Positions 37,499-61,450 of a stretch of 64,000 bases of DNA are shown piece by piece. Origin of the DNA: Clostridia bacterium (GTDB lineage: Bacteria; Bacillota; DAOUPZ01); NCBI GenBank assembly GCA_030625885.1, contig DAOUPZ010000005.1:62001-126000 (forward strand). Reading direction: 5' to 3'. The notes under the pieces were generated by a model, which saw only the letters and a program-made list of their open reading frames with translations, was not told the origin of the DNA and did not search any database. Numbering within the stretch: the first letter of the stretch is position 1; each line of letters begins with the position of its first letter. A program made the position numbers and the translations under genes.

Positions 37499-37507
37499 TT
37501 TACCCTC

Positions 37508-40055: not shown

Positions 40056-40087
40056 TATTATATGTAACCTTTGTTAGTAATGTTAAT
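40056..40087 (-). promoter_or_regulatory. shared-type promoter (ATTAACATT-N14-CATATAATA)
   Basis: Minus strand: ATTAACATT (40087-40079), 14 nt, CATATAATA (40064-40056), about 27 bp before the ATG at 40029. Also readable as TTAACA-N18-TATAAT for the housekeeping sigma factor. Confidence 0.7.
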
Positions 40088-40153
40088 ACTGACCAGCCAT
40101 ACCCTTAGGAATTGTTTTCGCTTAAATCTTAAACAATCGTTTTCGAACTACGA

Positions 40154-41488
40154 TTAAAATCCGGCTAAAGCCTTCGCATATTGAATAGGAGATGATTTAA
40201 CATCATAATACATCTCTTCTGCATTAAGATCTAAGGGGAAATGATGCTCATGCCGCCGGTTATTGATTTCAATCACCCAAATATTCAAATCACAATCCAA
40301 CCCAATATCAAAACCAAAGTCACCATAACATCGATCTCTTTCATCTAATACATGGCAAACTTTCTTGCATACTTCTATAATCTGATGCTCTTTTTTCCAT
40401 ATCTCCCTGGGTTCTAAATGGCATATGCCTCCAAGTACATCTTCAAAAGTATGAACATATCCGCCTCCTTGAATATTGGTATCAATATTGCCCTTCTTCC
40501 CAAAGCGGGCAATCACACCTGTACATTGCCATTTTTGCGTATAATCCTTTTGCATAATAAAGCGAAAATCTATTTTGCGCTCTCTATAAGAAAGTAAATT
40601 AATAGATTGCTGAATTAAATAATTATGATGTTCACTTAAAAAATCAATAATAAAGTTCTCTGCCTCATATTTTGTTCCAAAAATTTTTTCTTCATCACCC
40701 TTATTATATTTAAAATGATAGCCATCCAGTTCATAGGTTACCTTGATAATCCCAAGCCCTTGAAAACCATTTGATGGTTTAAGAAATATCGCAGGGTATT
40801 GTTCCATCATATCAAAGATATCAACTGGTTTTTTTAAAGGATGCGTTTCCGGCAAATAAGGACGAATTGAGTTAACAGGGGACAGCCATTTCCATGCTTT
40901 CAGTTTATTAAACGTGGGATAATTAAATATTTTATTTCCCATTTCTTTGATAAGCGATTGATAAACATCTTTTTTGATGCCAATTCTTTGATAAATGACG
41001 TGTGGATAAGGAAATACACCTTTTTTCCAAGATGCTTCATCTTCATCAGTACAAGGGTTAAAATAATACCCTTGAATAATCTTTTTTTTCTGATCGATGC
41101 CTTCTGGGCTAAAGACAAATAATAGTCCTCTGACTGCAGGATATTGAAGGGTATAATTCAGGCACTTTTTCAAATACGCAGGCGAGTATTTTTCATCTTG
41201 CTTATGTAAAAGAAGGCCTATGATCGGTCCAAGATTTAATTCCTCATCATTAAGCAGGATATCATATGGAATATTTTGCGGAAGAAAAAGGTCCTCGAAA
41301 ACATCTTTCGATATCTTAATGGTTTTTTTAGCTAACCGTGATTCAAAGGATACCCCTACCGGGCACTTTCTTGCCCCGCCTCGAACGACCATTTTTCGAG
41401 GTATCTCATCAAAATATTCCATTATCAATTTCTCCGAAAAGATAACTTGTTTTTTTAATTGCTCATCCACTTCAAGTTGATAATTCAT
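40154..41488 (-). CDS. YheC/YheD-family ATP-grasp protein, subgroup II
   Basis: 444 residues, paralogue of 46828-48162 (shared DEQLK, FDIGLD-like end, NRRHEHxxPL). NLGPIIGLLLH, FLKPSNGFQGLGI, DFRFIMQKDYT and WVIEINNRRHEH are intact. ATG follows AAAAGGGGGG. Its own promoter of the shared type lies at 41577-41608. Confidence 0.85.
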   Translation of the reverse strand: MNYQLEVDEQLKKQVIFSEKLIMEYFDEIPRKMVVRGGARKCPVGVSFESRLAKKTIKISKDVFEDLFLPQNIPYDILLNDEELNLGPIIGLLLHKQDEKYSPAYLKKCLNYTLQYPAVRGLLFVFSPEGIDQKKKIIQGYYFNPCTDEDEASWKKGVFPYPHVIYQRIGIKKDVYQSLIKEMGNKIFNYPTFNKLKAWKWLSPVNSIRPYLPETHPLKKPVDIFDMMEQYPAIFLKPSNGFQGLGIIKVTYELDGYHFKYNKGDEEKIFGTKYEAENFIIDFLSEHHNYLIQQSINLLSYRERKIDFRFIMQKDYTQKWQCTGVIARFGKKGNIDTNIQGGGYVHTFEDVLGGICHLEPREIWKKEHQIIEVCKKVCHVLDERDRCYGDFGFDIGLDCDLNIWVIEINNRRHEHHFPLDLNAEEMYYDVKSSPIQYAKALAGF

Positions 41489-41576
41489 TTATTTCCCCCC
41501 TTTTTTATGAGTAAAATGCAATATTATTTTATTAAAATTTATTTCTTATCGGGAACGTATCTTTTCCTATCTATAA

Positions 41577-41608
41577 CACTATATGTTATTTTTTTTAAAA
41601 ATGTTAAT
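41577..41608 (-). promoter_or_regulatory. shared-type promoter (ATTAACATT-N14-CATATAGTG)
   Basis: Minus strand: ATTAACATT (41608-41600), 14 nt, CATATAGTG (41585-41577). About 90 bp before the ATP-grasp gene at 41488. Confidence 0.65.
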
Positions 41609-41684
41609 ACTATCCACAAAGGATAAAAAGCAACCCAAAATTATCTATATATACTGCACCGAAAAAAAATATACCATTTACAGG

Positions 41685-41745
41685 AAAATGCAAGATCAAG
41701 GTCATTGCAGAAGATACAAGCGACATGTCCTCAATCTTGCATTTT
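41685..41745 (-). terminator. possible terminator of the MurF-like gene
   Basis: AAAATGCAAGAT (41685-41696) and its complement ATCTTGCATTTT (41734-41745) with a 37-nt loop. No long T-run follows, so termination is uncertain. Confidence 0.4.
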
Positions 41746-41833
41746 AAATATGAAATGCAGATTATTTAATGTAATTTATATAGTTATGATTTTAAGTTGT
41801 TTTATTCTTTATAACATATGAATGATGACACAG

Positions 41834-43243
41834 CTACTTCATTAATAAATGTACTAAAGATAGTCCAGATGTTCTTTTTCCTTCTATAAAAGTAATTTTT
41901 ACCAAGACCAGAGCATTTGAATCAAGCGCCTTTTTTAAGGTTAGTGCTGCGTGATTTAGATCATTTACATAACATATTTTCTCCCTCTCCATCCCATTTT
42001 CTACCGCAACCTCCCCAATTTGTACAGCATTTTTCCCTATCGTAATCAATCTATCTAAATTAGCATCAGCTACTTTTTTACCAACCATTTCATAACTTTC
42101 GTCTACAGACTGCCCAACACGTTGAACATCCCCCATAACAGCAATTATCTTCCGGCCTCCGGCAATATTCTTTAATACTTCTAAAGCTGCTTCAATTGAA
42201 AATATATTTGACTTTACGCCATCATAAAGAATAACACTGCCATTAATTCCCGCCATTGTTTTTAACGGACAGCGCTCAGGCCAATGGATCATTTCCTCAC
42301 GATACTGCATCAAGCCAGCTTGAATATCATTAACAGAACAACCCATTAACTGACAAGCTGCAATAGCAGCTAAAGCATTATAAACATTATGAATTCCCCA
42401 TCCGGGAATAACCAACTCTGCTGTTTCTTGAACAGTATGTAAAATAAATTTCATACCTATATCCGTATACTGAATATTGGAAGCAGAAATATCTGCTTTA
42501 TCATTAATACCAAAATAAATAATTTTTCCGTCAAATTGTTCTAACTTTAGTTTCTTACTATTTTCATCATCATTATTTAAAATCAATGTCCCCCCTTTTT
42601 TCATTCCCTTAATAATCTGACCTTTTGCCTTTATTATATTTTCTAAAGTTTTGCATCCTTCCATATGATCAATCCCGATATTGGTAATAATACCGATCGT
42701 GGGCTGTACATAAGCACTTTGAATGGCTATATCTGTAGGACCACTCAAACCCAATTCGATGACTGCAGCATCTGTTTTGTTATCAATACTCAATATATAT
42801 CGCGGCTTAGAATCTAAGGCATTAAAACTGCAATAGCTATATACAATATCATGATATCTCTGCTGTAAAATATGGGCAATCATTTCTTTTGTTGTTGTCT
42901 TTCCCGCTGTTCCGGTAATCCCTATAACAGGAATATCAAACAAATTGCGATAATATTTAATAAATCCCCAATAAGCTTTCCGTAAATCCGGTACGTAAAC
43001 AACTCCTATTTCCTCGGGCACAGTTTGTAAATCAATTTGTTCTTGTGTTACTATCGCACGAATCCCTTTTTGCAGCATTTCATCAAAAGAAACACGGTAC
43101 AGCGAACGATAATAAAATACAAGACACTGAGGATATAAATGCTTCTTGATACGTCCTATTCCAGTTATAAGGGATTCCGGATCCCCTCTAAGCAGCTCCC
43201 CATTAATCGCTTTTACAATGGTTCCCAATGTCAAACTTTGCAT
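41834..43243 (-). CDS. MurF-like Mur ligase with altered P-loop
   Basis: 469 residues with the three-domain Mur-ligase plan: a MurF-like N-terminus, a P-loop GTAGKTTTKE (true MurF here has GSNGKTTTKD), VIELGLSGPTDI, TNIGIDHMEG and a C-terminal domain. MurF's NFNNEIG and NDAYNASPTSM become SFNALDS and YDGVKSNIFSI, so the substrate differs. ATG 43243 follows GGAAGGG. It stands inside the ATP-grasp cluster and has the shared-type promoter 285 bp upstream. Cyanophycin synthetase also combines ATP-grasp and Mur-ligase units. Confidence 0.85.
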   Translation of the reverse strand: MQSLTLGTIVKAINGELLRGDPESLITGIGRIKKHLYPQCLVFYYRSLYRVSFDEMLQKGIRAIVTQEQIDLQTVPEEIGVVYVPDLRKAYWGFIKYYRNLFDIPVIGITGTAGKTTTKEMIAHILQQRYHDIVYSYCSFNALDSKPRYILSIDNKTDAAVIELGLSGPTDIAIQSAYVQPTIGIITNIGIDHMEGCKTLENIIKAKGQIIKGMKKGGTLILNNDDENSKKLKLEQFDGKIIYFGINDKADISASNIQYTDIGMKFILHTVQETAELVIPGWGIHNVYNALAAIAACQLMGCSVNDIQAGLMQYREEMIHWPERCPLKTMAGINGSVILYDGVKSNIFSIEAALEVLKNIAGGRKIIAVMGDVQRVGQSVDESYEMVGKKVADANLDRLITIGKNAVQIGEVAVENGMEREKICYVNDLNHAALTLKKALDSNALVLVKITFIEGKRTSGLSLVHLLMK

Positions 43244-43527
43244 ATTATCCCTTCCTTCCATTTATTTCATATCATTTCCAAACCAATAAATTATCTAATC
43301 TAACACCTAGTTTAGAAAAAATGACATGTTCCCTTCCTTTAAAACTAACCTGTGTCGTACTATATAAAATAGCCGACAACAAATGCTTAACTCGGCGTCA
43401 TAATTAATTTTTCTAAATCCTTCATGAATCAATCTTATATACGTTGGTTAGACGAATAATCCTTAAGCCAAAATATAACGGTTTTTAGCATTGTCTATTT
43501 ATATTTAACAGTTATGTACTTTTGTAA

Positions 43528-43559
43528 TATGATATGTTATTTTTGTTATAAATGTTAAT
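43528..43559 (-). promoter_or_regulatory. shared-type promoter (ATTAACATT-N14-CATATCATA)
   Basis: Minus strand: ATTAACATT (43559-43551), 14 nt, CATATCATA (43536-43528). It would give the MurF-like gene a leader of roughly 280 nt. Confidence 0.65.
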
Positions 43560-43638
43560 TATAACCATAATAATAAATATTAACTACTTATTAAATCCAC
43601 TTTTATAGATTCCAAGCTGATAACTTAAATTATAGATT

Positions 43639-43685
43639 CCTTAATCTTTTATTTCCAACTAACCAACTTTCCAACTAACCAACTG
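43639..43685 (-). repeat. word repeat, GTTGGTTA type (8-bp period)
   Basis: Minus strand: GTTGGTTA, GTTGGAAA, GTTGGTTA, GTTGGAAA, then TAAAAGATTAAGG. It has the shared tail of the heptad family but an 8-bp period, the one exception seen. Confidence 0.75.
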
Positions 43686-43820
43686 CCCCCTGATATTAAA
43701 CTCTATGAAAAATATTTAATACGGTCTCAATAATAATTTTAATTTTGACATTGGATATCTATATCAAAAATAACTTTTAAAGAAAAGGACAAGAATTACA
43801 GCATAGAGTTGTTGAAAAAT

Positions 43821-43944
43821 AAAAAAACATAAAAAAACCTGAAGATCCTATCATCATATTAAAAGACCTTTAGGTTTTTTTATGTTTTTTTTTATGTTTT
43901 TTTTTTATGTTTTTTTTTTATGTTTTTTTTATGTTTTTTTTATG
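43821..43944 (-). terminator. terminator with expanded T-run/ATG tandem repeat
   Basis: Perfect 20-bp stem AAAAAAACATAAAAAAACCT (43821-43840) and its complement (43872-43891). The right arm continues as six ATG triplets (43882, 43894, 43907, 43920, 43931, 43942) separated by 8-10 T: a tandem repeat of about 11-13 bp grown out of one terminator arm. Ends the upstream ATP-grasp operon. Confidence 0.75.
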
Positions 43945-44029
43945 TTTTCTTTTATAGCTTTAATAAACATCTTATATACTGTATGTATTATCCAAAAGTA
44001 GTATAGTTCATCATAAGCAGTAATAAAGA

Positions 44030-45391
44030 TTAAATATTATCATCCATATTATAATTAAATCCTGCTAAACTCTTTGAATATTCCAGGATACGTGTCCGCA
44101 TTGTTTCATACATCTGCCGATCCCCTGCATAAAGCGGTACTTCATGAGTATGACGTACATTAACTTCAATTAACCAGGGACGATATGATTGATCCAAAAT
44201 GACATCTACCCCTAGATCCCCATATAAACCATGATGATCCATTAATTCACAGGCTTTCTTGCTGATTTCAATCATTTCACTTTTTGTTCTTTCTATTTCT
44301 CCGGATGGTAAATAACTCGTTTTTTCCATCGTATCTTCAAATGTCATCCCTTCACTATGCTGTCCATAGATTTTCATATGACTATCCATTCCACCCACTA
44401 AACCTGGTAATGCGACGATTCCCGTACACGCCCACTGCTGGCTTTGATTTTTTTGCATAATAAGACGAAAATCTAGTTTACGCCCTTCATATGTAATATC
44501 ATTGATTCCTTGCTGCACAATATATTCTCGCTCTGCAGTAATTGCTTTTACTTGGACATCCATTTCATCTCTTTCCTTAATAATTCTATCTTCTGGTTCT
44601 TGCCGAAAGCAGAAATGATCGCCATCTTCTTTTCGCATCACTACGATAATACCGTATCCAAAACAAGAGGCAACCGGCTTCAGAAAAACCTTTTGATGCT
44701 TTTGGAGCATCTCCTCTAAATCTTTTGCTGATTTAAGCATTTTCGTTTCAGGAAGATAATTAATTAATGACGGATCTTTTTCCAGCCACTGTGCCATTGT
44801 TCGCTTATGATAAAGCTCAGGGTAGTTAATAATGGTCTCTCCTATTTCAGATTTTAAATGTTTAAAAAGATTATACGGTATATATGAACGCTGAAATATG
44901 ACATCAGGATAGGGAAATGCAGCTTTTTTCCAAGGAACTTCTCCCGGAGAAACATTTGGTTGAAAATAATATCCCGTAATCGTTTTTTGCTTAGTATCAA
45001 TTTTATCCCTGCTAAATACACATACCAAACCATTTATATCGTCATACTTTAAGGCAAATGTTGAATAATCTTGTAATCGTTTCTTGGTTAAAGCTGATTC
45101 ATTTTTTGCCATCAGCAAGCCAATAACAGGACCGATGTGCAATTCACCATTAACAATCGAAACGTCAAAAGAAACATCATCAGGCAACAAGAAAAAATCT
45201 TTTAAATTGGGTGAAAATTGAATAACATTTTCTTTTAGTCCAACATCTATCATTATATGCACCGTTTTTCGCCGGGCGCCTACTCTAATGATCGTTATAT
45301 CCTTTAAGTCTTCTTTTTTTTCTATTATAAAATCATAGGGTAAAACAACCGTCCCCATTAAATTATTATTAATAACCATTTTATAAGGCAT
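44030..45391 (-). CDS. YheC/YheD-family ATP-grasp protein, subgroup I
   Basis: 453 residues, closest to its neighbour 45447-46781 (both have DSHMKIYGQHSEGMTF). HIGPVIGLLM, FLKPVASCFGYGI, DFRLIMQKNQ and WLIEVNVRHTHEVPL are intact. ATG behind GGAGGGG. Last gene of the first ATP-grasp block; the terminator follows directly. Confidence 0.85.
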   Translation of the reverse strand: MPYKMVINNNLMGTVVLPYDFIIEKKEDLKDITIIRVGARRKTVHIMIDVGLKENVIQFSPNLKDFFLLPDDVSFDVSIVNGELHIGPVIGLLMAKNESALTKKRLQDYSTFALKYDDINGLVCVFSRDKIDTKQKTITGYYFQPNVSPGEVPWKKAAFPYPDVIFQRSYIPYNLFKHLKSEIGETIINYPELYHKRTMAQWLEKDPSLINYLPETKMLKSAKDLEEMLQKHQKVFLKPVASCFGYGIIVVMRKEDGDHFCFRQEPEDRIIKERDEMDVQVKAITAEREYIVQQGINDITYEGRKLDFRLIMQKNQSQQWACTGIVALPGLVGGMDSHMKIYGQHSEGMTFEDTMEKTSYLPSGEIERTKSEMIEISKKACELMDHHGLYGDLGVDVILDQSYRPWLIEVNVRHTHEVPLYAGDRQMYETMRTRILEYSKSLAGFNYNMDDNI

Positions 45392-45446
45392 TTTTTCCCC
45401 TCCATTCTTTTCCTTGATTACATCACATTAATTATTGAACAAAAAA

Positions 45447-46781
45447 TTAAAACCCCGCCAAACTTCTGGCATATTCCAATATCCTGGTCCGCATGCCTTC
45501 AAACATTTTCCTATCTGGAATCAGTAATGGCACACTATGATCATGCCGTTTATTAATCTCAATGAGCCAGGGGTGATAAGCTGTATCCAAAATCATATCC
45601 ACGCCCAAATCTCCGTAATGACCATGCTGATCCATGACTTCACAAGCGCTCCTGCTTACTTCTATCATTTCTTTTTTTAATTTTTCTATCTCCTCAGAAT
45701 TTAAGCCATCCATTCTTTGCATGGTTTCTGCAAATGTCATCCCTTCACTGTGCTGCCCATATATTTTCATATGGCTATCCATGCCGCCCTCGATACCTGG
45801 TAATACGACAATTCCCGTACACTGCCACTGTCGGCTTTGATCTTTCTGCATAATTAACCGAAAATCAAGCTTGCGCCCTTCATAAGTAATATCCTCTATG
45901 CCTTGCTGTACAATATATTTGTGTTTCCCAATAATACCTTTTACCTGTTCAGCCAATTCTTCCTTATTTTCAATGATTCTTTCCTCTGGTTCATGCCTAA
46001 ATTGAAAATGCTCACCATCTTCTTTGCGCGTTACGATGACAATACCCTGACCAAACGACGCCGAAAGCGGCTTTAGAAATACGCGTGAATATTGATTGAG
46101 CATTTCATCCAATTCTTGTACCGAACCCAAAAATTGTGTTGCTGGTACATAGTCGGCAAGAAAAATATCATTTTCCAACCAGTGTGCAACCTTCCTCTTA
46201 TTCGCCCAGGGATAGTTAATAATCATGTCACCCATTTCCGCAGTTAAATCCGTATAGAGTTGCCGCGGAATATCAGCACGTCTGAATATCACATCGGGGT
46301 AGGGAAATACCCCTTCCCTCCAGCACCCATCACTTTGTGTCCCATGCGGTTGAAAATAATATCCTTTGATTGTTTTATGCGTCATATCAATCCCTTTAGG
46401 ACTAAATACATAAACCAACCCATGAATATCATTATATTTTAAAGCATATGAAGAAAACCGACGCAACCGCCATTCAGGAAAAATCTCTGTCTTTCCCCCT
46501 AACAGCAAACCAATAACGGGTCCGATATGCAATTCGCCCTCACTAATGACCATGTCATAAGACAAATCACCCAAAATCAAAAAGAATTGCGCCAAATCTT
46601 TGCTCATATGAATAATATTGTCTGCCAAATCTTCATCAACAGAAAAGGAAACTTCTTTCTTTCGTGTCCCAAATTTAACAGTTATCATATCTGAAAATTC
46701 TTGTCTATTCGCGCTCATAATTGGAAATGGTAAAATCACCTGATTACTTAAAGCTTGATCAACCATTATCTTAAATACCAT
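45447..46781 (-). CDS. YheC/YheD-family ATP-grasp protein, subgroup I
   Basis: 444 residues. HIGPVIGLLLG, FLKPLSASFGQGI, DFRLIMQKDQ and WLIEINKRHDHSVPL intact. The start at ATG 46781 has GGGGGA 6 nt upstream; the ATG at 46787 would lie directly on that site. A 24-bp palindrome (46797-46820) separates it from the gene before it. Confidence 0.85.
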   Translation of the reverse strand: MVFKIMVDQALSNQVILPFPIMSANRQEFSDMITVKFGTRKKEVSFSVDEDLADNIIHMSKDLAQFFLILGDLSYDMVISEGELHIGPVIGLLLGGKTEIFPEWRLRRFSSYALKYNDIHGLVYVFSPKGIDMTHKTIKGYYFQPHGTQSDGCWREGVFPYPDVIFRRADIPRQLYTDLTAEMGDMIINYPWANKRKVAHWLENDIFLADYVPATQFLGSVQELDEMLNQYSRVFLKPLSASFGQGIVIVTRKEDGEHFQFRHEPEERIIENKEELAEQVKGIIGKHKYIVQQGIEDITYEGRKLDFRLIMQKDQSRQWQCTGIVVLPGIEGGMDSHMKIYGQHSEGMTFAETMQRMDGLNSEEIEKLKKEMIEVSRSACEVMDQHGHYGDLGVDMILDTAYHPWLIEINKRHDHSVPLLIPDRKMFEGMRTRILEYARSLAGF

Positions 46782-46796
46782 CTTCATTCCCCCTTT

Positions 46797-46820
46797 AACA
46801 TTGTTTTATAAAACAATGTT
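46797..46820. other. 24-bp perfect palindrome in operon
   Basis: AACATTGTTTTATAAAACAA plus TGTT, a perfect dyad between two ATP-grasp genes. Could be a weak terminator, an mRNA-processing hairpin or an operator. Confidence 0.5.
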
Positions 46821-46827
46821 AAGAAAT

Positions 46828-48162
46828 CTAAAATCCAGCTAACGATTTAGCATAGCGTACAGGGTTTGATTTAACTTTATAATACATTTGTTCATCATGA
46901 ATATATAACGGGAGACGATGCTCATGCCGCCGGTTATTTACTTCAATCACCCAAATATTTAGTTCTTGATCCAGAGCAACATCCATACCAAAATCGCCAT
47001 AACAATTTCCCATTTTATCCAATGCATAGGCTATTTTCTTGCATACCTGAATCATCTCTTGCTCTTTCTTGTATATTTCCTTATATTTAAATTTTGTCGC
47101 TTTCTTTAATGCCTTTGCAAAAGTTCGTGTATATCCTGCCCTCTGAAAATTAGTCGCTATGCTTCCCTTTTTACCAAAGCGCGCAATGATGCCAGAACAC
47201 TGCCATTCTTTTGTATGATCTTTTTGCATAATAAACCGGAAATCTATTTTTCGCTCCTTATATGAAAGTAAATCAATAGATTGCTGAATTAAATAATTAG
47301 GATGTTCTACCAGCAGCCGCTCAATAAATTCTGCTGCTTCTTTGCCTGCAAAAGCTGTATTTTCCGCTTCTTTTTTATTAAATTCAACAAAACATGTATT
47401 TTCTTTCAAAACCACCTTAATAACCCCAAATCCCTTGGTCCCTGCTGCAGGTTTAATGTACACTTGAGGATACTTCCTGATCATCTCCCAAAAATCAGAT
47501 ACCGTTTTAAGCGGTCTGGTTTCCGGTAAATACTTTCGCACAGAATCAAACTGCGATAACCAATCCCACATTTGCTTTTTACCAAACCAAGGATAGTTGA
47601 ATATTTTATTTCCAATCTCTTTTGTCAGAGATTGATAAATATCATCTTTTAACCCGATTCGTCTATAGATAGCATGAGGATACGGAAAAATCCCTGCTTT
47701 CCAGGGTGTGTCTCTTTCTTTTGCACAGGGGTCAAAATAATATCCATGAATCGTCCTGTTTTTCATATCAATACCTTCCGTACTAAAGATATATAATAAT
47801 CCGTTTATAACAGGATATTGCAAGGTAAAATCAAGGTGCTTCTTCAAACGTTCAGGTGTAATTTTTTCATCTTTATTATGTAAAAGAAGACCTATTACCG
47901 GTCCAATATTCAATTCTTCTTGCTCTAGTACAATATCATAAGGTAATTCCAAGGGCAGCAAAAGATATTCAAAAATATCTCTTGATAACTTAATATAATC
48001 TTTTTCTAATCCCTCTTTGAAGATAACGCGTGCTTCACATTGCCTTGCGCCACTACGTACCACAATTCGTTGGGGAACAGTACGAAAATGACGTGCTGCT
48101 AAATTTTCTGAAAGAGTAACAGTATTTTTTAATTGAGTATCAATTTCTAAACAATATGCCAT
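46828..48162 (-). CDS. YheC/YheD-family ATP-grasp protein, subgroup II
   Basis: 444 residues, paralogue of 40154-41488. NIGPVIGLLLH, YIKPAAGTKGFGV, DFRFIMQKDHT and WVIEVNNRRHEH intact. ATG preceded by AAAGGGGGGAG; the first base overlaps the stop of the upstream gene, so translation is coupled. Confidence 0.85.
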   Translation of the reverse strand: MAYCLEIDTQLKNTVTLSENLAARHFRTVPQRIVVRSGARQCEARVIFKEGLEKDYIKLSRDIFEYLLLPLELPYDIVLEQEELNIGPVIGLLLHNKDEKITPERLKKHLDFTLQYPVINGLLYIFSTEGIDMKNRTIHGYYFDPCAKERDTPWKAGIFPYPHAIYRRIGLKDDIYQSLTKEIGNKIFNYPWFGKKQMWDWLSQFDSVRKYLPETRPLKTVSDFWEMIRKYPQVYIKPAAGTKGFGVIKVVLKENTCFVEFNKKEAENTAFAGKEAAEFIERLLVEHPNYLIQQSIDLLSYKERKIDFRFIMQKDHTKEWQCSGIIARFGKKGSIATNFQRAGYTRTFAKALKKATKFKYKEIYKKEQEMIQVCKKIAYALDKMGNCYGDFGMDVALDQELNIWVIEVNNRRHEHRLPLYIHDEQMYYKVKSNPVRYAKSLAGF

Positions 48163-49526
48163 TAATTCTCCCCCCTTTGCGGAGAAAAACCCGCTAATTT
48201 TTTCGCATAAAGCATCGGAGCCGTCTTTGCCGCATAGTACATTGCCTGATCATCAATATCCAAAGCAATGGTAGGATCAGGAAAACGATTGTTTACTTCA
48301 ATTAACCAGATATGCCCTTCCTTATCCAGTGCCAAATCAACCCCCAAATCACCACAATTCACCCCGCATTCTCCCAATCTTTCGCATACTGTTGTCGCAA
48401 AATTCACCATCTTATCCTTTAAAACAAAAACTCCTTTTTCAGAAAGCAATAATATCTTTTGCAGAGCCTCTTCTCCCCTCATCGCTTGACCGCCTGTAGA
48501 TATATTACTTACCACACTGCCTTTTACCCCAAAACGAGCAACCATCCCCACAAAAAACCAGTGTCCAAATTCATTTCGTTGCATAATAAGCCGAAAATCT
48601 ATGACACTGTCATTATGTTTTAAAATATCAATCGGCTGCTGAATAATATATTCTTCTTGAACCAAACGATTTTGAAAAACTCCATTCAGTTTATTTATTT
48701 CTAAAAACTCCATTGTTCTACTTTTCCCTTTCTCAGGCCCCTCATTCTTGTCACGAAATTTCAAAACATATTCATTACCTCGGGTTGATACCTGCATAAC
48801 CCCAATTCCCATTCTGCTTGCTAACGGTTTAATATAGGCCTTACCATACTTTTGCAAAAAAGTGTGTATATCCTCCGGCCTCTTATAAAGTATCGTTTGT
48901 GGTAAATGTTTGGAAATTTGAGGATAAACCTCAAGCCACTCATACATTTCCCATTTATTAAAATAATCACTGTTAAATATTTTATCGCCAAATACAGAAA
49001 CCAGATATTTCATCCATTTCTTACTAACTGCTGTTCTACGGAAAATTGCTACAGGATAGGGATATGTTCCAGCCTTCCATTCATTTTCAACTGGATCATA
49101 GCAATACCCTTTAATAAGCTGTTCTTCCCGGTTCATTCCTTCCAAAGAAAAAGCAATAATGGCTCCGTTTACCTGATGGTAATAATGCAAATACTTTAAC
49201 ATGACTTTAAGTTGATGCGGCGTTATGTTCTCTTCTTTAATTTCCGATAAAATACCAATAAAAGGTCCCAATATGATTTCATTTCCGTTTACCCTTACCT
49301 CATAATGCGATGATAAAGGTAAATGTAAATACTCAATCACTTTATTGGCTACTTGCAGTTCATCCGGCGCTAATTGTTTAGAAATAACAACCTCTATCTT
49401 ACAAGCCCTGCTTCCAAAACGCAGTATCCCCAGTCTTTTTTTTTCTAATCCCAACAGCCTGGCTGCTTCAGGATGAATAACCAAAGTTGATTTATTTTCA
49501 AAATCTGGAATTATAAAAAAGCGCAT
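48162..49526 (-). CDS. YheC/YheD-family ATP-grasp protein, subgroup V
   Basis: 454 residues, the only member without a near paralogue in the window. ILGPFIGIL, YIKPLASRMGIGV, DFRLIMQRNE and WLIEVNNRFPDP intact; its N-terminus (FFIIPDFENKSTLVI) differs from the others. ATG behind a strong GGGGGGAGG. Confidence 0.83.
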   Translation of the reverse strand: MRFFIIPDFENKSTLVIHPEAARLLGLEKKRLGILRFGSRACKIEVVISKQLAPDELQVANKVIEYLHLPLSSHYEVRVNGNEIILGPFIGILSEIKEENITPHQLKVMLKYLHYYHQVNGAIIAFSLEGMNREEQLIKGYCYDPVENEWKAGTYPYPVAIFRRTAVSKKWMKYLVSVFGDKIFNSDYFNKWEMYEWLEVYPQISKHLPQTILYKRPEDIHTFLQKYGKAYIKPLASRMGIGVMQVSTRGNEYVLKFRDKNEGPEKGKSRTMEFLEINKLNGVFQNRLVQEEYIIQQPIDILKHNDSVIDFRLIMQRNEFGHWFFVGMVARFGVKGSVVSNISTGGQAMRGEEALQKILLLSEKGVFVLKDKMVNFATTVCERLGECGVNCGDLGVDLALDKEGHIWLIEVNNRFPDPTIALDIDDQAMYYAAKTAPMLYAKKLAGFSPQRGEN

Positions 49527-49529
49527 TTT

Positions 49530-52036: not shown

Positions 52037-52138
52037 TTTTCTCCCCTCCTTATTTTATTTATCAATGACTCTCAATGTACCAGTATCTATCCTTAATTGG
52101 TATTAATGGTAACAACTGAAAAGTTTTACTTTTATAGA

Positions 52139-52170: not shown

Positions 52171-52215
52171 CATAGCCAATAAAAGCTTAAAAAAACTTCA
52201 TTTGATAAAAATAGT

Positions 52216-52827: not shown

Positions 52828-52941
52828 ATGAATACTCCTTCCCAATGTATTTCTTGTATTTTTTATTATGTGTCTATTTATGGATGTCATACCGAAAGCC
52901 AACCTTATATTTATTGGAAGGAATGTTGATGATTACATTTT

Positions 52942-53298: not shown

Positions 53299-53340
53299 TT
53301 TCTTACCTTCCTTTCTCTATAGCTTTTCTATAAATATTGA

Positions 53341-53473
53341 AGGTTAGGCATCTCCAAGAAAATAACTGGTCCGTATGACAGCCTATTTTGAGTTATACTG
53401 CGTTATCAGAACCTACTGACAACTCTAACCTGATGCCTTGTCCATCTCAAAATATTTCTAACTAGTTATTTTC
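53341..53473. other. structured spacer with nested inverted repeats
   Basis: Outer arms GAAAATAACT (53358-53367) and AGTTATTTTC (53464-53473); inner arms TTTTGAG (53387-53393) and CTCAAAA (53446-53452); also GGTTAG/GGCATC at the left end, with complements at 53425-53437. No frame. It looks like a folded RNA or the remnant of a small mobile element. Confidence 0.55.
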
Positions 53474-53484
53474 TTTACAATCCC

Positions 53485-54858
53485 TTACTGCGGATATTCT
53501 ATGGTGTATTCACCTTTTTTTTCAGCAATAGACAGGATCTCCAATGAATAATCAATTAACGCTTTCGCATTTTCAGTTGATTGTTGGGAATGGAATATCG
53601 CAACACCAATATTCGCAAAAATATTTTCATTAAATTTAACGTCATTCATATTAAAAGTAGTCGATTTTAGTACCAAAAGTAAACTTTCTGCAAAGGCCTC
53701 AATATCTTCCACTTCTTTGTGCCGGAAGAGAAAACAAAAACGATTTTCTGTTATCTTGCCAACAATATCAATATTCTCAGTATGATTTTCAATAATCTTT
53801 ATCGTTTTCTGGATCATTTCACTTTGAATATTAATACCCATTATGCTTTTCCGCTTTTTGCGATTATTAACCTGTAAAGTTATTAATGAAAAAGAATAAC
53901 CATACTTCATAGCCCGCGCCATTTCCTGCTCAATATACTGCTCAAAAAAATCATACTTATAAATTTTTGAACCCTGATATTGGAAAGATTCTTTTTTCCC
54001 TCTGATTCCTTCATATTTGTCTAGATAGCTAAATAGATTGTTTTTGATTTTACTATTATCAAGAGAATCCTCCAATGATTCTCTCGAATCATCCGTATCG
54101 ATATTATTAATATTTTGCAGATCATTGCTAATCACCTGAAATACGCGATCATTTAACTGTTCATATTTTCTAATAAATATAATGATGGCACTCAATGAGC
54201 ATATAAGACCAATAGCAAGCGCTATCCCGAAACTCTTTGATAAATTCTGTGTTTCTACTACATTAAGCAAATTTGAATGAGCACCCGAACCCATTGTGAA
54301 TGAACCGCTAAATAGGCTTTGACCAATCTTTTTGCCCAGCATCACCACACCGCCTACAGAATCATGTTCCCTGCTAATAATAATGGGTGCATAAGCAAGA
54401 ATGGCTACGCCATCGTTATACAGCATATAACGATATCCGGTTTCTCGCCGCATGCCAAGTTTATAGGTATCACTATCACGCATGCTATAATACCATGATG
54501 ACAAATCCAAATTGCTGTAAATGACTTTCCCATCCTTATTTACCAAAATCATAAAATCATAGTTTGCCGTGATTTTATTTTCATCTTGGAACCATGCTCT
54601 TACGCCTTCCGCATCATCATGAGCTGCAGCTATGGAAATGACCTTCAACTGACTCAATTTTTCAGCATCCAAACTCATCTGCTCTCCTGTCTGATGCACC
54701 CCCTTTTGTATTTCCTCGTAGACTGTAGATAACGAAACATTTACTTCTGAATCCAAAAACCGGTTGGATGTTTCATTAATGATAGCGGTGTAAAAATATG
54801 ATATTGAAATATAGGGTAATAAAATAAGAACCAGTATAATAAATTTTTTTAGCGACAT
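53485..54858 (-). CDS. membrane sensor with degenerate GGDEF domain
   Basis: 457 residues: a membrane segment (about 5-25), an extracellular sensor (about 30-205, with FMILVNKDGKVIYS as in Cache/CHASE domains), a second membrane segment (about 208-230) and a C-terminal GGDEF-like domain. Where active enzymes have GG[DE]EF it reads GKITENRF, so cyclic-di-GMP synthesis is unlikely. ATG 54858 has AGGAGG 8 nt upstream. It begins 21 bp after tadC and probably senses or regulates for the pilus. Confidence 0.8.
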   Translation of the reverse strand: MSLKKFIILVLILLPYISISYFYTAIINETSNRFLDSEVNVSLSTVYEEIQKGVHQTGEQMSLDAEKLSQLKVISIAAAHDDAEGVRAWFQDENKITANYDFMILVNKDGKVIYSNLDLSSWYYSMRDSDTYKLGMRRETGYRYMLYNDGVAILAYAPIIISREHDSVGGVVMLGKKIGQSLFSGSFTMGSGAHSNLLNVVETQNLSKSFGIALAIGLICSLSAIIIFIRKYEQLNDRVFQVISNDLQNINNIDTDDSRESLEDSLDNSKIKNNLFSYLDKYEGIRGKKESFQYQGSKIYKYDFFEQYIEQEMARAMKYGYSFSLITLQVNNRKKRKSIMGINIQSEMIQKTIKIIENHTENIDIVGKITENRFCFLFRHKEVEDIEAFAESLLLVLKSTTFNMNDVKFNENIFANIGVAIFHSQQSTENAKALIDYSLEILSIAEKKGEYTIEYPQ

Positions 54859-54879
54859 CTCTCTCCCCTCCTTATCCAT

Positions 54880-55806
54880 TTATTTATTAAATAATACCGT
54901 CATAATATTGATAACTGCCGGCCCCAATAAAACAACAAAAACAGTTGGGAATATAAAGAATATTAACGGAAGCAGCATTTTAACAGGCGCTTTCTTCGCT
55001 TTTTCTTCAATTTTTTGTTTATATAACCGCCGCATTTCTTTTGCTTGTATTCTTAAGACATTCCCAATACCTACACCCAATTTCTCTCCTTGAATAATGG
55101 CATTGACCACATTTTTAAACCCGTCAACTTGTAAGCGTTCTGCTAGATCCCGTAACCCATCATCACGAGATTTCCCCATTTTCATTTCTCTTATCATTCT
55201 TTTTAACTCTTCAGCAAGAGGGCCATGTATTTTTTGCGATACACGAATTAATGCCAAATCAAATCCTAATCCTGCTTCCACACTAACCATAAGAAGATCC
55301 ATTAAAAAAGGTAATTCTTTTGCCATACTCTTTTTTCTTTTATCACATCGTATTCTTAAAAGTAAATACGGCCCTAAACATTCAATAGCCGTTACTATAG
55401 CAAACAAGCGAAGCGTTTTTAAAAACGAAACGTGAAATTGAGACCAGCAATACCCTATGAGCAGCGTACTGCCCATGAATAACAGCATCGGAATGGTCAT
55501 AAATTGGGATATATCCATTTTCAGACCACTTTCCAGCAAGGTTTTTTTCAATTTATCTTTCATACCGGAAGGCATAACAGCCATTATAAATACCTTCAAT
55601 TTTATCATCAGTGGACCTACAACCCTTGTTAAGAAAGGAAGTGACCGCCTATTCTGCTTATTAGACAAATCATTTTGTGATATTTGAACATATTGCAATA
55701 ACCTTTTCGTTATTAGTGACTTATTATAGATTAATTTGTCAGATATCAAAATAAAAACAATCATAAATGTGATAGAAAAGCATCCTAGAATAAGCGCTTC
55801 AAACAT
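54880..55806 (-). CDS. tadC: Tad pilus inner-membrane platform protein TadC
   Basis: 308 residues with the T2SSF domain (DLLMVSVEAGLGFDLALIRV; GFKNVVNAIIQGEKLGVGIG) between membrane segments at the N-terminus, middle and C-terminus. TadB and TadC form the membrane platform of the Tad system. ATG behind AAAGGAGGTG, 24 bp after tadB. Confidence 0.9.
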   Translation of the reverse strand: MFEALILGCFSITFMIVFILISDKLIYNKSLITKRLLQYVQISQNDLSNKQNRRSLPFLTRVVGPLMIKLKVFIMAVMPSGMKDKLKKTLLESGLKMDISQFMTIPMLLFMGSTLLIGYCWSQFHVSFLKTLRLFAIVTAIECLGPYLLLRIRCDKRKKSMAKELPFLMDLLMVSVEAGLGFDLALIRVSQKIHGPLAEELKRMIREMKMGKSRDDGLRDLAERLQVDGFKNVVNAIIQGEKLGVGIGNVLRIQAKEMRRLYKQKIEEKAKKAPVKMLLPLIFFIFPTVFVVLLGPAVINIMTVLFNK

Positions 55807-55830
55807 CTCGACACCTCCTTTCGCTAAAAT

Positions 55831-56802
55831 CTATACATCAATACTGACAATTTTACGAATGCATAAAATCCCGACCAATTCTCCCGCAAGCGCAGCGATA
55901 ATAAAAAATATGCCCAATGGGTGAACAAAAAGTGTTTTCGTATATTCCGGATTGACAAAATACAATAACAGGAACAGTGATAGTGGAAGCAAAGAGACAA
56001 TATAACCAGAAATCCTTCCTTGCGCTGTCAGCGTCTTTATTTCTTGTTGAAGATAAACCCGCTCCCGGACATTTTCCGTAATGTTATCTAGTATTTCAGC
56101 CAAATTACCACCAACTTCTCGTTGAATAATAACTGCTGTAGCCATCATTTCTAACTCACTTACTTCAAGCCGCTGGACCATATTATTTAATGCTGCTTCA
56201 AGTGTGCTTCCTAATTGCATTTCCCGCAGCAATTGTGCAAACTCTGCAGCAATGGGTTTTTCTGCTTCTGATACGATATTATTGATGGCCATGGACAAAC
56301 TGTACCCTGCTCTTAATGCATTTGATAAGATCGGTAATACCCCAGGTAATTGCACTCGAATTTTTTTTTGTTTCCTTTTTTTCAAATGCCGGGGGATAAA
56401 AAAGAAAGATATGACGCCCAAAACACAGGGGAAAATAACAAATAAGCGTTTGTTTCCAAGAATATACACCAAAACCATCAGAACGAGTGTGGCTAGAATA
56501 TGTAAAAACAAGTATTCGTTAGGCTTTAAAGGAATATCAGCATCACTCAATCTTGTATCCAACCATTTTTCAAACCGAGAATAAGCATTAACTCTGCTTA
56601 ACAACTTGGACTTACCAAAAGAAAGCTTAACAGTGGATTTTTTATTCACAGGAGCTATGACTCTATGATCAATATATTTCCAATACCGTAGAAATCTTTT
56701 CTTAACAACACGTTGAAAAGAAAGATATTTGTATATATAGTAAACCAAAAATATGACTGTTATAAAAAAGGTTATTAATAAAACGATTTCCAATTTTATC
56801 AC
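55831..56802 (-). CDS. tadB: Tad pilus inner-membrane platform protein TadB
   Basis: 323 residues with a T2SSF domain (LPGVLPILSNALRAGYSLSM; MMATAVIIQREVGGNLAEIL) and about four membrane segments. GTG start with GGAGG 7 nt upstream. Lies between cpaF and tadC in the usual Tad order. Confidence 0.9.
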   Translation of the reverse strand: MIKLEIVLLITFFITVIFLVYYIYKYLSFQRVVKKRFLRYWKYIDHRVIAPVNKKSTVKLSFGKSKLLSRVNAYSRFEKWLDTRLSDADIPLKPNEYLFLHILATLVLMVLVYILGNKRLFVIFPCVLGVISFFFIPRHLKKRKQKKIRVQLPGVLPILSNALRAGYSLSMAINNIVSEAEKPIAAEFAQLLREMQLGSTLEAALNNMVQRLEVSELEMMATAVIIQREVGGNLAEILDNITENVRERVYLQQEIKTLTAQGRISGYIVSLLPLSLFLLLYFVNPEYTKTLFVHPLGIFFIIAALAGELVGILCIRKIVSIDV

Positions 56803-56820
56803 CTCTTTCCCTCCAGATAC

Positions 56821-58170
56821 TTATACCCCTATTGCTTCGAGTTTCTCACTGACCTTGGGTCGGATCCCTGTTTCAATAAATGCTCCTTTTTCACTCCCCA
56901 AAGTCCCTCTACTATTATGTTCAAAACGAAAGATATCCTGACAAACATATACATCTCCTTCCATCCCGAGTACTTCTGTAACATAGGAGATTCTTCTTTT
57001 ACCATCTCTAAAACGTTCTGTCTGAACAATAATATCTATTGCAGAAACAACCTGCTGCCGAATGGCCTTTAAGGGTAATTCAACCCCTCCCAGCAGTACC
57101 ATCGTTTCCAGTCTAGCCAAGGCATCATGCGGTGTATTGGCATGAATCGTAGATATAGAACCACTGTGACCGGTATTCATGGCCTGCAGCATATCTAAGG
57201 CTTCCCCTCCGCGCACTTCGCCAACCACAATACGATCCGGCCGCATCCTTAATGTATTCCTGACTAAATCATTAATTGTAACAGCCCCTTTTCCTTCAAC
57301 ATTGGGCGGGCGGGCTTCTAACCGCACAACATGGGGCTGCATCAATTGCAGTTCTGCGGCATCCTCAATCGTAATAATACGTTCATTATGAGGAATAAAG
57401 GAACTTAAACAGTTCAGCAAAGTTGTTTTACCTGATCCTGTACCACCGGAAATAATGATGTTTAATTTCCCCAAAACACACCGTTTTAAAAAAACTGCTA
57501 TTTTATTATTTAATGAATTAAATTGGATGAGCTTTTTTATGGTAAGCGGTTTTTTCGCAAATTTCCTTATGGTAAGCGTGGGTCCTTCTAATGCGATCGG
57601 ATGAATAACCGCGTTAACCCGTGACCCGTCAGGAAGACGCGCATCTACCATGGGTGAACTTTCATCAATTCGCCTTCCTAGAGGTGTTACAATCTTTTCA
57701 ATAACATGCAACAGATGGCTATTATCACGAAAATGATTGGGAACCGCTTCAATCATTCCTTTTCTTTCTACAAATATTTTATTACATCCGTTCACCATAA
57801 TTTCGGATATACTTTCATCTTCCAACAACGGTGTAATCGGTCCATAAGCAAAAATGTCCTGAAACAGCTCATTTATAATCTTTTTATAGTCACCTATTGG
57901 AATTTTAACAACTTCTTTCTGTAAACTTGTATTAATAATACGCTCTAATTGTTTTTTTACTTTTTCTTCGTTTCCTTTGCCATTTAACACAAAATCATGA
58001 TTATCGCCAATTTCCTGAATAATATCCCCATGTATTCTATCTTTTAAATCTTTATAAATATCTTTCTCATAAGTATAAGTCGTACCGGTACTTTTCGTGC
58101 TCCGTTTCTTTTGCTGCGCTTGATCGTTATCAGCTTTTCTTTTTTGTTCCATCTTCTCCAGCAAAGACAT
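56821..58170 (-). CDS. cpaF: Tad pilus assembly ATPase CpaF/TadA
   Basis: 449 residues, secretion ATPase driving Flp pilus extension (and, in some species, retraction). Walker [13 protein letters not shown], Asp box TIEDAAELQ, Walker [16 protein letters not shown] and His box [15 protein letters not shown] are all present. A charged N-terminal extension ([14 protein letters not shown]) is typical. AAGGGGG precedes the ATG. Confidence 0.94.
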
Positions 58171-58175
58171 TCATT

Positions 58176-59372
58176 CTACCCCCTTTTCAGGAAACTGAGA
58201 AATTTTCTTTTGCGTATATTTATGGCTTGTGCTTCTTCATGATTGCTGAGACGTGAGGCAAACCGGTTAACAATCTTCGTTATGGTTTCCTGAGGTTCGG
58301 AAAGCACAAACGGATCTCCTTTATTGACACAAATCCCTACCAGTTCCGGATTATCAGGTAAATAACATGCAACCGGATAATTTAATGCTTTTTGCACTTC
58401 CTGCCAGGTAATGCCTATTTCCATTGACGATTTATTTAAAATAATTTTTATTTTCGAAGTATCAATTTTTAAAGATTCCATAATATCCAATCCCACTTTA
58501 ACATTTTTTATGGTTGGTAAATCCAATGTAGATATGACAAATATCTCATCCGATAACTCAAGGGACATTAAAACAGGATCATTAAATACGGGTGGTGTAT
58601 CAATAATAATAAAGTCAAAGCATTGTTTAAGGCTGTTTATGATCGCTTTTACATGCTCTTCCAATACCAAATCCGCTTTTTCTGGCTGCAACGGCCCGGG
58701 AAGAACATAGATCCCGGAACTATGCTGAACCAAATAGTCGTTAACATTTTCTTCATTAATCTCATTGACTTCATTAATGAGTTCCACAATACTTTTCTTA
58801 GGAATAATGTTCAAAAAAACCGATACATCACCAAACTGTAAATCCAGGTCAATCAAGACCACACGGTGATTATAAACATGTGTCAAACTTGCTCCTAGAT
58901 TGGTTGTTATCGTTGTTTTCCCAACACCGCCTTTGGTACTGATAATTGAAATAACCTTTCCCTCATCATCTTCCAGCGTTTTTTTATTCCCATTTTTCTC
59001 ATTTACTGAATGTTGCATATACCGCTCAATACTATCTTTTATTCCATCTATTTGTAATGGCTTCACTAAAAAATCTTTAGCTCCTATGATCAATGAGCGG
59101 CGAATGGTCTCTGGTTCTTTTTTAGAAGATAATATAATAATACCTACCTCTCGCCTGGAATCCATAAAGCTTTTTGCCAGTTCCAGACCGTTATCCAAAA
59201 AATCTAAATCTATTAATATAACATCAGGTTTAACTTTATGGAACTGATTTTTGATGTACCCCTTTTTTTGAATAATATAGAACTTTGATAATTTCATAAT
59301 ATCCTTTAATGATGAAACTTCATTTATGACTGTTTCATCGTTGGTAATTAACATCAAGTCTATTGTACTCAT
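58176..59372 (-). CDS. tadZ: Tad pilus localisation ATPase CpaE/TadZ
   Basis: 398 residues: an N-terminal atypical receiver-like domain (residues 5-120, with LIDLDFLDNG) and a MinD/ParA ATPase domain with the deviant Walker A STKGGVGKTT. Places the Tad machine in the cell. Two ATGs (59375, 59372) follow AAAGGAGG; 59372 has better spacing. Confidence 0.9.
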   Translation of the reverse strand: MSTIDLMLITNDETVINEVSSLKDIMKLSKFYIIQKKGYIKNQFHKVKPDVILIDLDFLDNGLELAKSFMDSRREVGIIILSSKKEPETIRRSLIIGAKDFLVKPLQIDGIKDSIERYMQHSVNEKNGNKKTLEDDEGKVISIISTKGGVGKTTITTNLGASLTHVYNHRVVLIDLDLQFGDVSVFLNIIPKKSIVELINEVNEINEENVNDYLVQHSSGIYVLPGPLQPEKADLVLEEHVKAIINSLKQCFDFIIIDTPPVFNDPVLMSLELSDEIFVISTLDLPTIKNVKVGLDIMESLKIDTSKIKIILNKSSMEIGITWQEVQKALNYPVACYLPDNPELVGICVNKGDPFVLSEPQETITKIVNRFASRLSNHEEAQAINIRKRKFLSFLKRG

Positions 59373-59441
59373 CATATTCCTCCTTTCTGTGTATAGATGT
59401 TTTAACTGTTCATATTGCCTTTAATCACGTTTATCAAGTAT

Positions 59442-60116
59442 TCAATCATCATTTTTGTCTTTATTATCATCATAAGGACGTAACAACAATCTGATTTTCC
59501 CTTTTTCGGCCGCATAAGTAAGAACCTTTCCTTCTTCCGGCGTAACACAAAGCGTATAAGTCTTAGCTTCAACCTTAGTAGGTACCTGCTCATTTAATTT
59601 ACTCCCTATTGCCAGAACTTGAATATATTCCAATATCATTTTAGCCCGTTCTTCCTCACAACTGTTATTTTGATCCATTACCGCAACAACATCTACATAA
59701 TCCCCGACTGCAACATGCTGCCCTACCCCTATTATTTCATCTACTTTTATGGATATTGCCCGCATGCCTTCTGATATAGAAATGGAGAGACCGATATTAT
59801 CATTGCTTATAACCAGTTGTTTTTTTAATATTTGCTGCCCGTCAAAAATATCGTTCACACAATGTTTCCCAATCACCTCTTCTACCCGTGAACAGGCATC
59901 TTTATTTTTATATTGCTGCGGTATGCTTTCAATTCTGATCATCTCCGGTAATATTTTTGTGCGTTCCAGAATGGTTTGAGTGGCAATAACAACCGGTTCA
60001 TAGATGATTTCTTTTTGTTTCTCCAGTTTTTGAAGATACATATAAAAAAGGGATGTTGTGATGCTCGCCATCAAAATGGCAATAATAAATATTTTTTTTC
60101 GTTTACTAGACGTCAT
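59442..60116 (-). CDS. cpaB: Tad pilus assembly protein CpaB/RcpC
   Basis: 224 residues: one N-terminal membrane segment, then an SAF domain (VVIATQTILERTKIL) and the CpaB beta-clip region (GMRAISIKVDEIIGVGQHV...GDYVDVVAVM). ATG 60116 follows AAGAAGGG. Immediately upstream lies a truncated copy. Confidence 0.88.
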   Translation of the reverse strand: MTSSKRKKIFIIAILMASITTSLFYMYLQKLEKQKEIIYEPVVIATQTILERTKILPEMIRIESIPQQYKNKDACSRVEEVIGKHCVNDIFDGQQILKKQLVISNDNIGLSISISEGMRAISIKVDEIIGVGQHVAVGDYVDVVAVMDQNNSCEEERAKMILEYIQVLAIGSKLNEQVPTKVEAKTYTLCVTPEEGKVLTYAAEKGKIRLLLRPYDDNKDKNDD

Positions 60117-60327
60117 AAAATCCCTTCTTTCTTTCACTACGCTCCACCCATAATATTTTGGGTTTAAGTCTATTCTGAACCGATATATCTGAGGCCGCTA
60201 CGATAACAGGTTCATAAATAATCTCATTTTGTTTACCTATCATCAAAGAAAGCCACAGGAAAAACGCAATCATACTACCAATCAAAAAAGTTATCATAAC
60301 CATCTTTCTCAATATAGGTTTTGTCAT
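60106..60327 (-). pseudogene. truncated cpaB copy
   Basis: 73 residues. A membrane segment and the SAF start, NEIIYEPVIVAA, closely match the intact CpaB (KEIIYEPVVIAT), then the sequence ends after RKKGFYDV, overlapping the cpaB start by 11 bp. Both have the same AAGAAGGGAT ribosome site, so it looks like a tandem duplication that lost its C-terminal two thirds. It could still be translated as a small membrane protein. Confidence 0.75.
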
Positions 60328-60356
60328 ACGATCCCTTCTTTCTTTTTTCCCGGAGC

Positions 60357-60860
60357 CTACTCCACTTTCATATAGATGAGTGCATCGATCGGATAGGGAT
60401 TTGGAAGAATCTGTTCCATGAGCGGAGAGAAAATATCTAAAGAATGATTGATTCTAACCATCAAATCATCTCCTGTCTGCCGGGTAACAGCATCAGGACT
60501 GATTTTTACAATGACATTATCAATACCGGCATTCAAGCTGGAAATGGTCGCAATAACCATGTTCCGTCCCTGCTCATCCGTTCCGGAAGAATAAGCAACG
60601 GTACATCCTGCCCCCATATAACCGGACAAATTGTTCACAATCTTTTCCACAACCACCGTATCCGAAGTATTTACAACGCCCACCCTTGCCCCTTCACGGC
60701 TGGCAAACTGCATCATTTGCATGATATATAAAACACGGCCAAATTCAATCATACTAAAGAGTAATAAAAGAAATATCGGTAAAATCAAAGCCAATTCCAC
60801 CACAGTTTGCCCGCGTTTCTCCCGCATCACCTTAATTGATTTTGTTATCCATTGACACAT
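60357..60860 (-). CDS. tadE: TadE-like pseudopilin
   Basis: 167 residues; the class III-type leader and hydrophobic stretch RGQTVVELALILPIFLLLL is the TadE signature, followed by a soluble periplasm-side domain. Starts at ATG 60860 behind AAGGTG. First gene of the leftward Tad operon, with the shared-type promoter at 61038-61069. Confidence 0.9.
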   Translation of the reverse strand: MCQWITKSIKVMREKRGQTVVELALILPIFLLLLFSMIEFGRVLYIMQMMQFASREGARVGVVNTSDTVVVEKIVNNLSGYMGAGCTVAYSSGTDEQGRNMVIATISSLNAGIDNVIVKISPDAVTRQTGDDLMVRINHSLDIFSPLMEQILPNPYPIDALIYMKVE

Positions 60861-61037
60861 GTTTTCACCTTCTTCACTGTTATCATTAAACCTGAAGCTC
60901 AGAACTTTATTCGTTCCTTGTTACTCGTTTCAATATCCATCTTATGTAAAAAAACATTTTACTTAATACCTCTGTTACCCTTTTTAGCAACAACATTGGA
61001 TAGATTATATTTCATTACATGGAATTTATTTCTATTA

Positions 61038-61069
61038 CATCTTATGCATATCCAAGTTAAAATGTTAAT
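61038..61069 (-). promoter_or_regulatory. shared-type promoter (ATTAACATT-N14-CATAAGATG)
   Basis: Minus strand: ATTAACATT (61069-61061), 14 nt, CATAAGATG (61046-61038), about 180 bp before tadE. Same layout as the ATP-grasp promoters. Confidence 0.7.
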
Positions 61070-61103
61070 ATTTAACAAAATCACTATCATCTTTTAAATG
61101 AAA

Positions 61104-61155
61104 GTTAAACAAAGATAGGCCTTGTAAACATTTACAAGGCCTATCTTTGTTTAAC
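61104..61155. terminator. strong terminator after flp
   Basis: Perfect 25-bp stem GTTAAACAAAGATAGGCCTT and onward with a 2-nt loop. It directly follows the flp stop, giving flp its own transcript as usual for abundant pilins. Confidence 0.9.
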
Positions 61156-61161
61156 TGCTAA

Positions 61162-61353
61162 TTAAAGACTATTACTTACTTCTGTAAACATATTTGTCAG
61201 ATTGCCTCCCATAGTCGTTAATATCGTAATCACAACAACTGCTACAAGTGCTAGAATGAGCCCATATTCTACTAAACCCTGACCTTCTTCATCCATTGTT
61301 ACTTGATCAAACATACATCTTAAGAAAACCATTAAATTGGTTAGCATATCCAA
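61162..61353 (-). CDS. flp: Flp/Fap pilin
   Basis: 63 residues. The prepilin signature GQGLVEYGLILALVAVVVI, with cleavage expected after the Gly and Glu at +5 of the Flp motif, precedes a short hydrophilic C-terminus. Major pilus subunit of the Tad system. ATG behind AAAGGAGGG. The prepilin peptidase (TadV/CpaA) is not in the window. Confidence 0.92.
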   Translation of the reverse strand: MDMLTNLMVFLRCMFDQVTMDEEGQGLVEYGLILALVAVVVITILTTMGGNLTNMFTEVSNSL

Positions 61354-61418
61354 TCCCTCCTTTCTTTTATGAGTTATAAAATAATGACTATCCCCCTTTT
61401 TGGTAATATATTCTAATA

Positions 61419-61450
61419 CATCATATGCGTAATGGATAATAAATGTTAAT
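61419..61450 (-). promoter_or_regulatory. shared-type promoter (ATTAACATT-N14-CATATGATG)
   Basis: Minus strand: ATTAACATT (61450-61442), 14 nt, CATATGATG (61427-61419), about 66 bp before flp. Confidence 0.7.

Follow-up and report, generated by a model that had tools for sequence, protein, structure and literature searches.

Six copies of one promoter-like motif are shared by two gene sets, a cluster of ATP-grasp and ligase genes and a locus for a Tad/Flp pilus, within a 64,000-nt stretch of the genome of a Clostridia bacterium (assembly GCA_030625885.1, contig DAOUPZ010000005.1, positions 62,001 to 126,000; hereafter the window). The sequence of these sites is best explained if they are sigma-K promoters, possibly used by sigma-E as well, an arrangement that would place both the ATP-grasp cluster and the Tad pilus under late mother-cell control. 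We put the probability of this reading at about two in three.

The shared motif

The initial annotation had described six minus-strand sites of the form ATTAACATT-N14-CATA, and all of them are present where it placed them. The first (P1, 40056-40087) ends in CATATAATA after the 14-nt spacer and lies 31 nt ahead of a 362-amino-acid (aa) ATP-grasp gene that opens the operon at 40029-32587. P2 (41577-41608, ending in CATATAGTG) is upstream of a YheC/D ATP-grasp gene at 41488-40154, and P3 (43528-43559, CATATCATA) is about 270 nt ahead of a MurF-like ligase gene at 43261-41834. P4 (52139-52170, CATATGATA) precedes a 358-aa ATP-grasp gene, the first of the operon at 52036-44030. The remaining two belong to the pilus locus, where P5 (61038-61069, CATAAGATG) is upstream of TadE and the Tad machinery operon (from 60860 down) and P6 (61419-61450, CATATGATG) is upstream of the Flp pilin gene. 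Every site is thus followed by an open reading frame (ORF) on its own strand, with roughly 30-290 nt to the start codon, where simple scripts were used to define both start codons and upstream regions.

Six exact matches in the window compare with 0.01 expected from 100 dinucleotide shuffles, and these six are the only exact copies in the genome (3,097,855 b, 39 contigs). The pattern TTAACATT-N14-CATANNRTR likewise occurred six times in this genome and as four singletons across 60 genomes of the same phylum. The bases nnRTR said to follow CATA were seen at all sites, as was the extended form CATAnnRTRT. When the six are aligned, a purine followed by A occupies the expected +1 and +2 positions in each, and an invariant G and A stand seven and three bases ahead of the motif (-44 and -40). 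The spacers divide the sites into two kinds: the four ATP-grasp promoters have 7-12 of 14 spacer bases identical among themselves, whereas the two Tad promoters have 2-5 of 14 in common with the ATP-grasp sites or with each other, which is chance level. The four ATP-grasp sites probably descend from one promoter, and this division by spacer implies about three independent occurrences of the motif, not six.

A whole-genome scan allowing one mismatch, which the initial annotation had proposed, returned 25 further sites, nearly all of the 24 inspected being within ORFs. One such site (C37:85748) is intergenic and placed as a promoter, 62 nt ahead of a gene for an HD-GYP protein. In a position weight matrix scan of about 400 kb, the six sites scored 27-30 bits and C37:85748 scored 23.9, the next hit being its own reverse strand at 17.0. 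This site (L140:9748-9784) sits between a RecQ-like helicase gene and the HD-GYP gene and is nearly palindromic; it may act as an operator or as a promoter in both directions. The claim that no copy stands before other genes therefore holds for the exact motif only, since weaker copies exist, one of them in the window (61699-61727, plus strand), where a promoter of the same class reading AC-N17-CATATTATGT lies upstream of a divergent TadG-like gene. Just past the window, near the Tad locus, a CHASE4-GGDEF-HD-GYP gene has the weaker copy ATTAACCAA-N14-CATATTATAAT. A near copy also lies 25 nt ahead of a gene for a YncE-like beta-propeller protein (C20:101834). Also past the window near the Tad locus, a 125-aa protein (L135:5716-6093) has TAACATT-N13-CATATACTATT about 50 nt upstream of its gene; the protein has no Pfam or PDB relatives, and an Ena-like identity, having no support from either, was rejected.

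Sigma factor assignment

Work in Bacillus subtilis and Clostridioides difficile has given the consensus of sigma-K promoters as AC-N16/17-CATAnnnTA, and has shown that a C at the fourth base of the -35 element discriminates sigma-K from sigma-E promoters (PMC517825, PMC3789822). All six window sites have the spacing AC-N17-CATA. Set against CATAnnnTA, their -10 elements have the T in every case, the last base being A in three and G in three. The -35 element, TAACATT, also agrees with the sigma-E element kmATATT at six of seven positions, with a 14-nt spacer, and the sole deviation, at all six sites, is a C in place of the T at that fourth base. A C. difficile sigK promoter likewise has AC and CATATAAT. 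Compared with sigma-K promoters known from B. subtilis and C. difficile, then, the window sites have the same AC at -35, 17-nt gap, CATAnnnT -10 and purine start, and the SigK of this genome has the same arginine; they differ in that the whole of ATTAACATT is conserved, the spacing is fixed, half the sites read CATAnnnTG and a Tad pilus would be among the targets.

The genome encodes sigma factors A, E, F, G, H, K, I and D and about seven of the extracytoplasmic function (ECF) type, where SigE, SigG and SigK were checked against curated models and the remainder were named from sequence. Its SigE reads GISQSY (GISQSYISRLEKR), with the discriminating Q, and its SigK reads GISRSY (GISRSYVSRIEKK), with the discriminating R at the position that contacts the -35. 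Sporulation genes are present (spoIVA, yabP, yqfC and SpoIID-family), and at yqfC stands TCATATT-N14-CATAAATT, a sigma-E site without a mismatch whose spacer is identical in length to that of the window motif. The sigK gene itself has AC-N17-CATATGATAG 42 nt upstream. Among upstream regions of the genome, in a sample picked partly around sporulation and sigma genes, N17 was the commonest spacing of AC-CATAnnnT (16 vs about 4.8, or 12 without the four ATP-grasp sites). A sigma-E/sigma-K class had already been suggested in the initial annotation; it is the best-supported explanation, and the fourth-base C, together with the Q and R of SigE and SigK, narrows it to sigma-K.

As proposed, each promoter would consist of the -35 element TAACATT, a 14-nt spacer (AC-N17-CATA overall) and the -10 element CATAnnRTRT, with transcription predicted to start at a purine 11 nt past CATA. 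In this spore-former, sigma-K would turn on both ATP-grasp operons, the gene for the MurF-like ligase and that for the KamA aminomutase at a late stage of sporulation in the mother cell, and with them, as part of the same programme, the genes for the Flp pilin and the Tad machinery. Co-expression of the pilus and the ligase cluster, perhaps in sporulation, is in this respect still the explanation with the best support, the sporulation-time expression of the pilus being what we infer. What the sequence shows is the motif with its exclusivity and placement, a set of sigma factors with matching specificity residues, and the same architecture ahead of YheC/D genes elsewhere; sigma-K as reader, co-expression in sporulation and any role of the pilus at the spore are inferred.

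YheC/D genes in other genomes

A search with the 362-aa protein against 399 genomes of the phylum, related to this one at phylum level, recovered distant YheC/D genes. An initial scan of related loci gave no match. In 22 upstream regions of these distant genes, AC-Nx-CATAnnnT stood six times at x=17 (0.39 expected), the 23 other spacings together accounting for nine more. This excess corresponds to a Poisson probability of 4e-6, in so far as the control spacings are under no other constraint, and to a Fisher probability of 5e-6 against 2/233 control upstream regions. The closest cluster (G370), which has its own MurF-like gene, carries AC-N17-CATA ahead of two YheC/D operons. Because of the N17 excess and the G370 operons, the YheC/D genes of several Firmicute families can be said to carry predicted sigma-K-type promoters widely.

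In B. subtilis, yheC and yheD are sigma-E genes activated by SpoIIID (PMC517825). They resemble the present case in that a mother-cell sigma factor controls YheC/D ATP-grasp genes, as proposed here, and differ from it in that the window has eleven copies, genes for MurF-like, Ddl-like and KamA proteins, and a -35 element of sigma-K type.

Points against sigma-K control

Several observations weigh against sigma-K as the reader of these sites. Read as TTAACA-N18-TATnAT, the sites would suit sigma-A too. An AC is all that sigma-K needs at -35, so that sigma-K alone does not account for the nine fixed -35 bases and the G(-44) and A(-40); a near-fixed nine-base -35 stricter than sigma-K needs may be the mark of a second regulator. 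By eye, spoIID and yabP of the same genome have no clean consensus. Genome-wide, AC-N17-CATAnnATRT is barely above control (34 vs 27), and this generic form was dropped as a regulon marker because it is too weak. Finally, the Tad loci of 20 other Firmicutes do not have the element, N17 occurring there twice vs a mean of about 3 and never before a recognisable Tad gene.

The Tad/Flp loci of Desulfosporosinus, Anoxynatronum and bacilli have CpaF, TadB/C and neighbouring Tad genes, as here; unlike here, their upstream regions do not contain AC-N17-CATAnnnT. With this negative result, Tad loci as general sigma-K targets were rejected, and the pilus would be tied to the programme in this lineage only, as far as seen. 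Recruitment of the Tad genes thus looks lineage-specific, which bears on the generality of the Tad link and not on the promoter class.

Alternative explanations

The sites could instead be sigma-A promoters under a dedicated activator or repressor that binds an operator containing ATTAACATT; they would then serve a regulon of vegetative growth or of stationary phase, for instance one for surface growth or biofilm. Four of the six -10 elements do read as TATnAT, the other two (TATAGT and TAAGAT) each being one base off, and the conservation of the full 9-mer with its flanking G and A is beyond the needs of a sigma factor alone. The near copies at two HD-GYP genes (C37:85748 and CHASE4-GGDEF-HD-GYP) would suggest a regulon for cyclic di-GMP (c-di-GMP) and the pilus. 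The initial annotation had also allowed for sigma-A, and TTAACA-N18-TATnAT is a loose match to TTGACA-N17-TATAAT. The rigid N18 and the bases around it (the invariant C and A before TATnAT and the TT after TTAACA) are features of sigma-E/K and not of sigma-A. Moreover, YheC/D genes elsewhere show the sigma-K architecture without the 9-mer, and the surroundings of the cluster revealed no dedicated regulator. A sigma-A regulon is on this evidence rather unlikely.

Sigma-E could be the reader in place of sigma-K, in which case the genes would be early mother-cell genes. The near match to kmATATT and the control of yheC/yheD in B. subtilis would be in keeping with this, and overlap of the sigma-E and sigma-K regulons is documented (PMC517825). 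That the one mismatch falls on the discriminating base at all six sites, while SigE of this genome carries Q, makes sigma-E as reader improbable.

One of the ECF sigma factors, if it recognises a -35 of AAC type at a rigid distance, could conceivably read these sites only. The motif is highly conserved and exclusive, and ECF genes exist in the genome. Set against this, the window yielded no sigma factor gene, no ECF gene has the exact motif at its own promoter (the exact sites being the six alone) and the -10 element CATAnnRTRT is of sigma-E/K type, all of which make such a factor highly improbable. That the likeness of the sites is a mere by-product of duplicating one promoter is scarcely credible: the duplicated operons, with first genes 57% identical, and the shared spacer bases would fit this at the ATP-grasp sites, whereas the intact motif between unrelated spacers largely refutes it for the Tad sites.

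Other candidates were rejected as well. For LytTR/AgrA direct repeats, ATTAACATT matches one half-site at 8/9 bases of the consensus, and by eye there is no second repeat about 21 nt off. As for PhoP-type TTAACA repeats, TAACA recurs every 9 nt at the ATP-grasp sites and not at the Tad sites. SpoIIID and GerE boxes gave no match by eye, and promoters for sigma-H, F/G, D, B and SigI have the wrong elements.

A possible place for the pilus in the sporulation programme

Research on Tad pili usually treats them as a means by which growing cells adhere. A literature search, with most subscription papers outside it, found no report of a sporulation sigma factor controlling a Tad pilus. The window sequence hints at pilus assembly during spore formation in this bacterium. 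More tentatively still, and with some doubt, the Tad/Flp machine and a beta-lysine/ATP-grasp peptide pathway could have been recruited to the late sigma-K programme, with mother-cell pili or a Tad-exported product coming to lie on the endospore or aiding its release or attachment. If true, the spore mother cell would build a secretion or pilus machine late in the process, a possible new origin for spore appendages or surface proteins. The link of the poorly understood YheC/D ATP-grasp family to sigma-K-type promoters would also set its chemistry at a particular time and site in development.

Gene content of the two loci

The pilus locus has the expected Tad/Flp components, namely Flp pilin, TadA ATPase, TadB/TadC, CpaB and TadE. 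The pilin gene (61162-61347, minus strand) matches Flp_Fap (PF04964, E 4e-13), and the Tad operon (54880-60860, minus) encodes TadE, CpaB/RcpC, a CpaE-like protein, the CpaF/TadA ATPase and two T2SSF proteins (TadB/TadC). No prepilin peptidase (CpaA/TadV) was seen among the ORFs scanned, the rest of the genome not having been searched. The operon also includes a protein with CHASE4 and GGDEF domains (53485-54879, minus) whose GGDEF signature looks degenerate (GKITENRF), which suggests that the protein senses c-di-GMP and is not a cyclase. Divergent from the pilin gene, on the plus strand, is a TadG-like gene (about 61778/61787 to 62926) with Tad and DUF7305 matches, the first of three in tandem (61787-64000 and L135:1-1297), at least two of which have DUF7305.

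On the minus strand of the ligase cluster, ATP-grasp operon A (44030-52036) has six YheC/D-type genes and is followed by the MurF-like Mur ligase (41834-43261), the stand-alone YheC/D gene (40154-41488) and operon B (32587-40029), with four YheC/D-type genes, a Ddl-like ligase and a lysine 2,3-aminomutase (KamA/AblA). This one duplicated cluster (32587-52036) holds 11 of the 12 above-cut-off YheC/D ATP-grasp proteins of the genome. The MurF-like, Ddl-like and aminomutase genes suggest a beta-lysine-containing peptide product, and the ATP-grasp, ligase and KamA genes together are probably a peptide pathway of spore-coat type. Elsewhere in the window, at 25681-27808, are Agr-like genes for AgrB and a SpoB/GHKL-type sensor kinase, with no LytTR regulator evident beside them among the ORFs inspected. 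Upstream of P3, positions 43840-43960 contain tandem repeats of the ACATAAAAAAA type followed by a hairpin-like stretch (ATGTTTTTTTAT).

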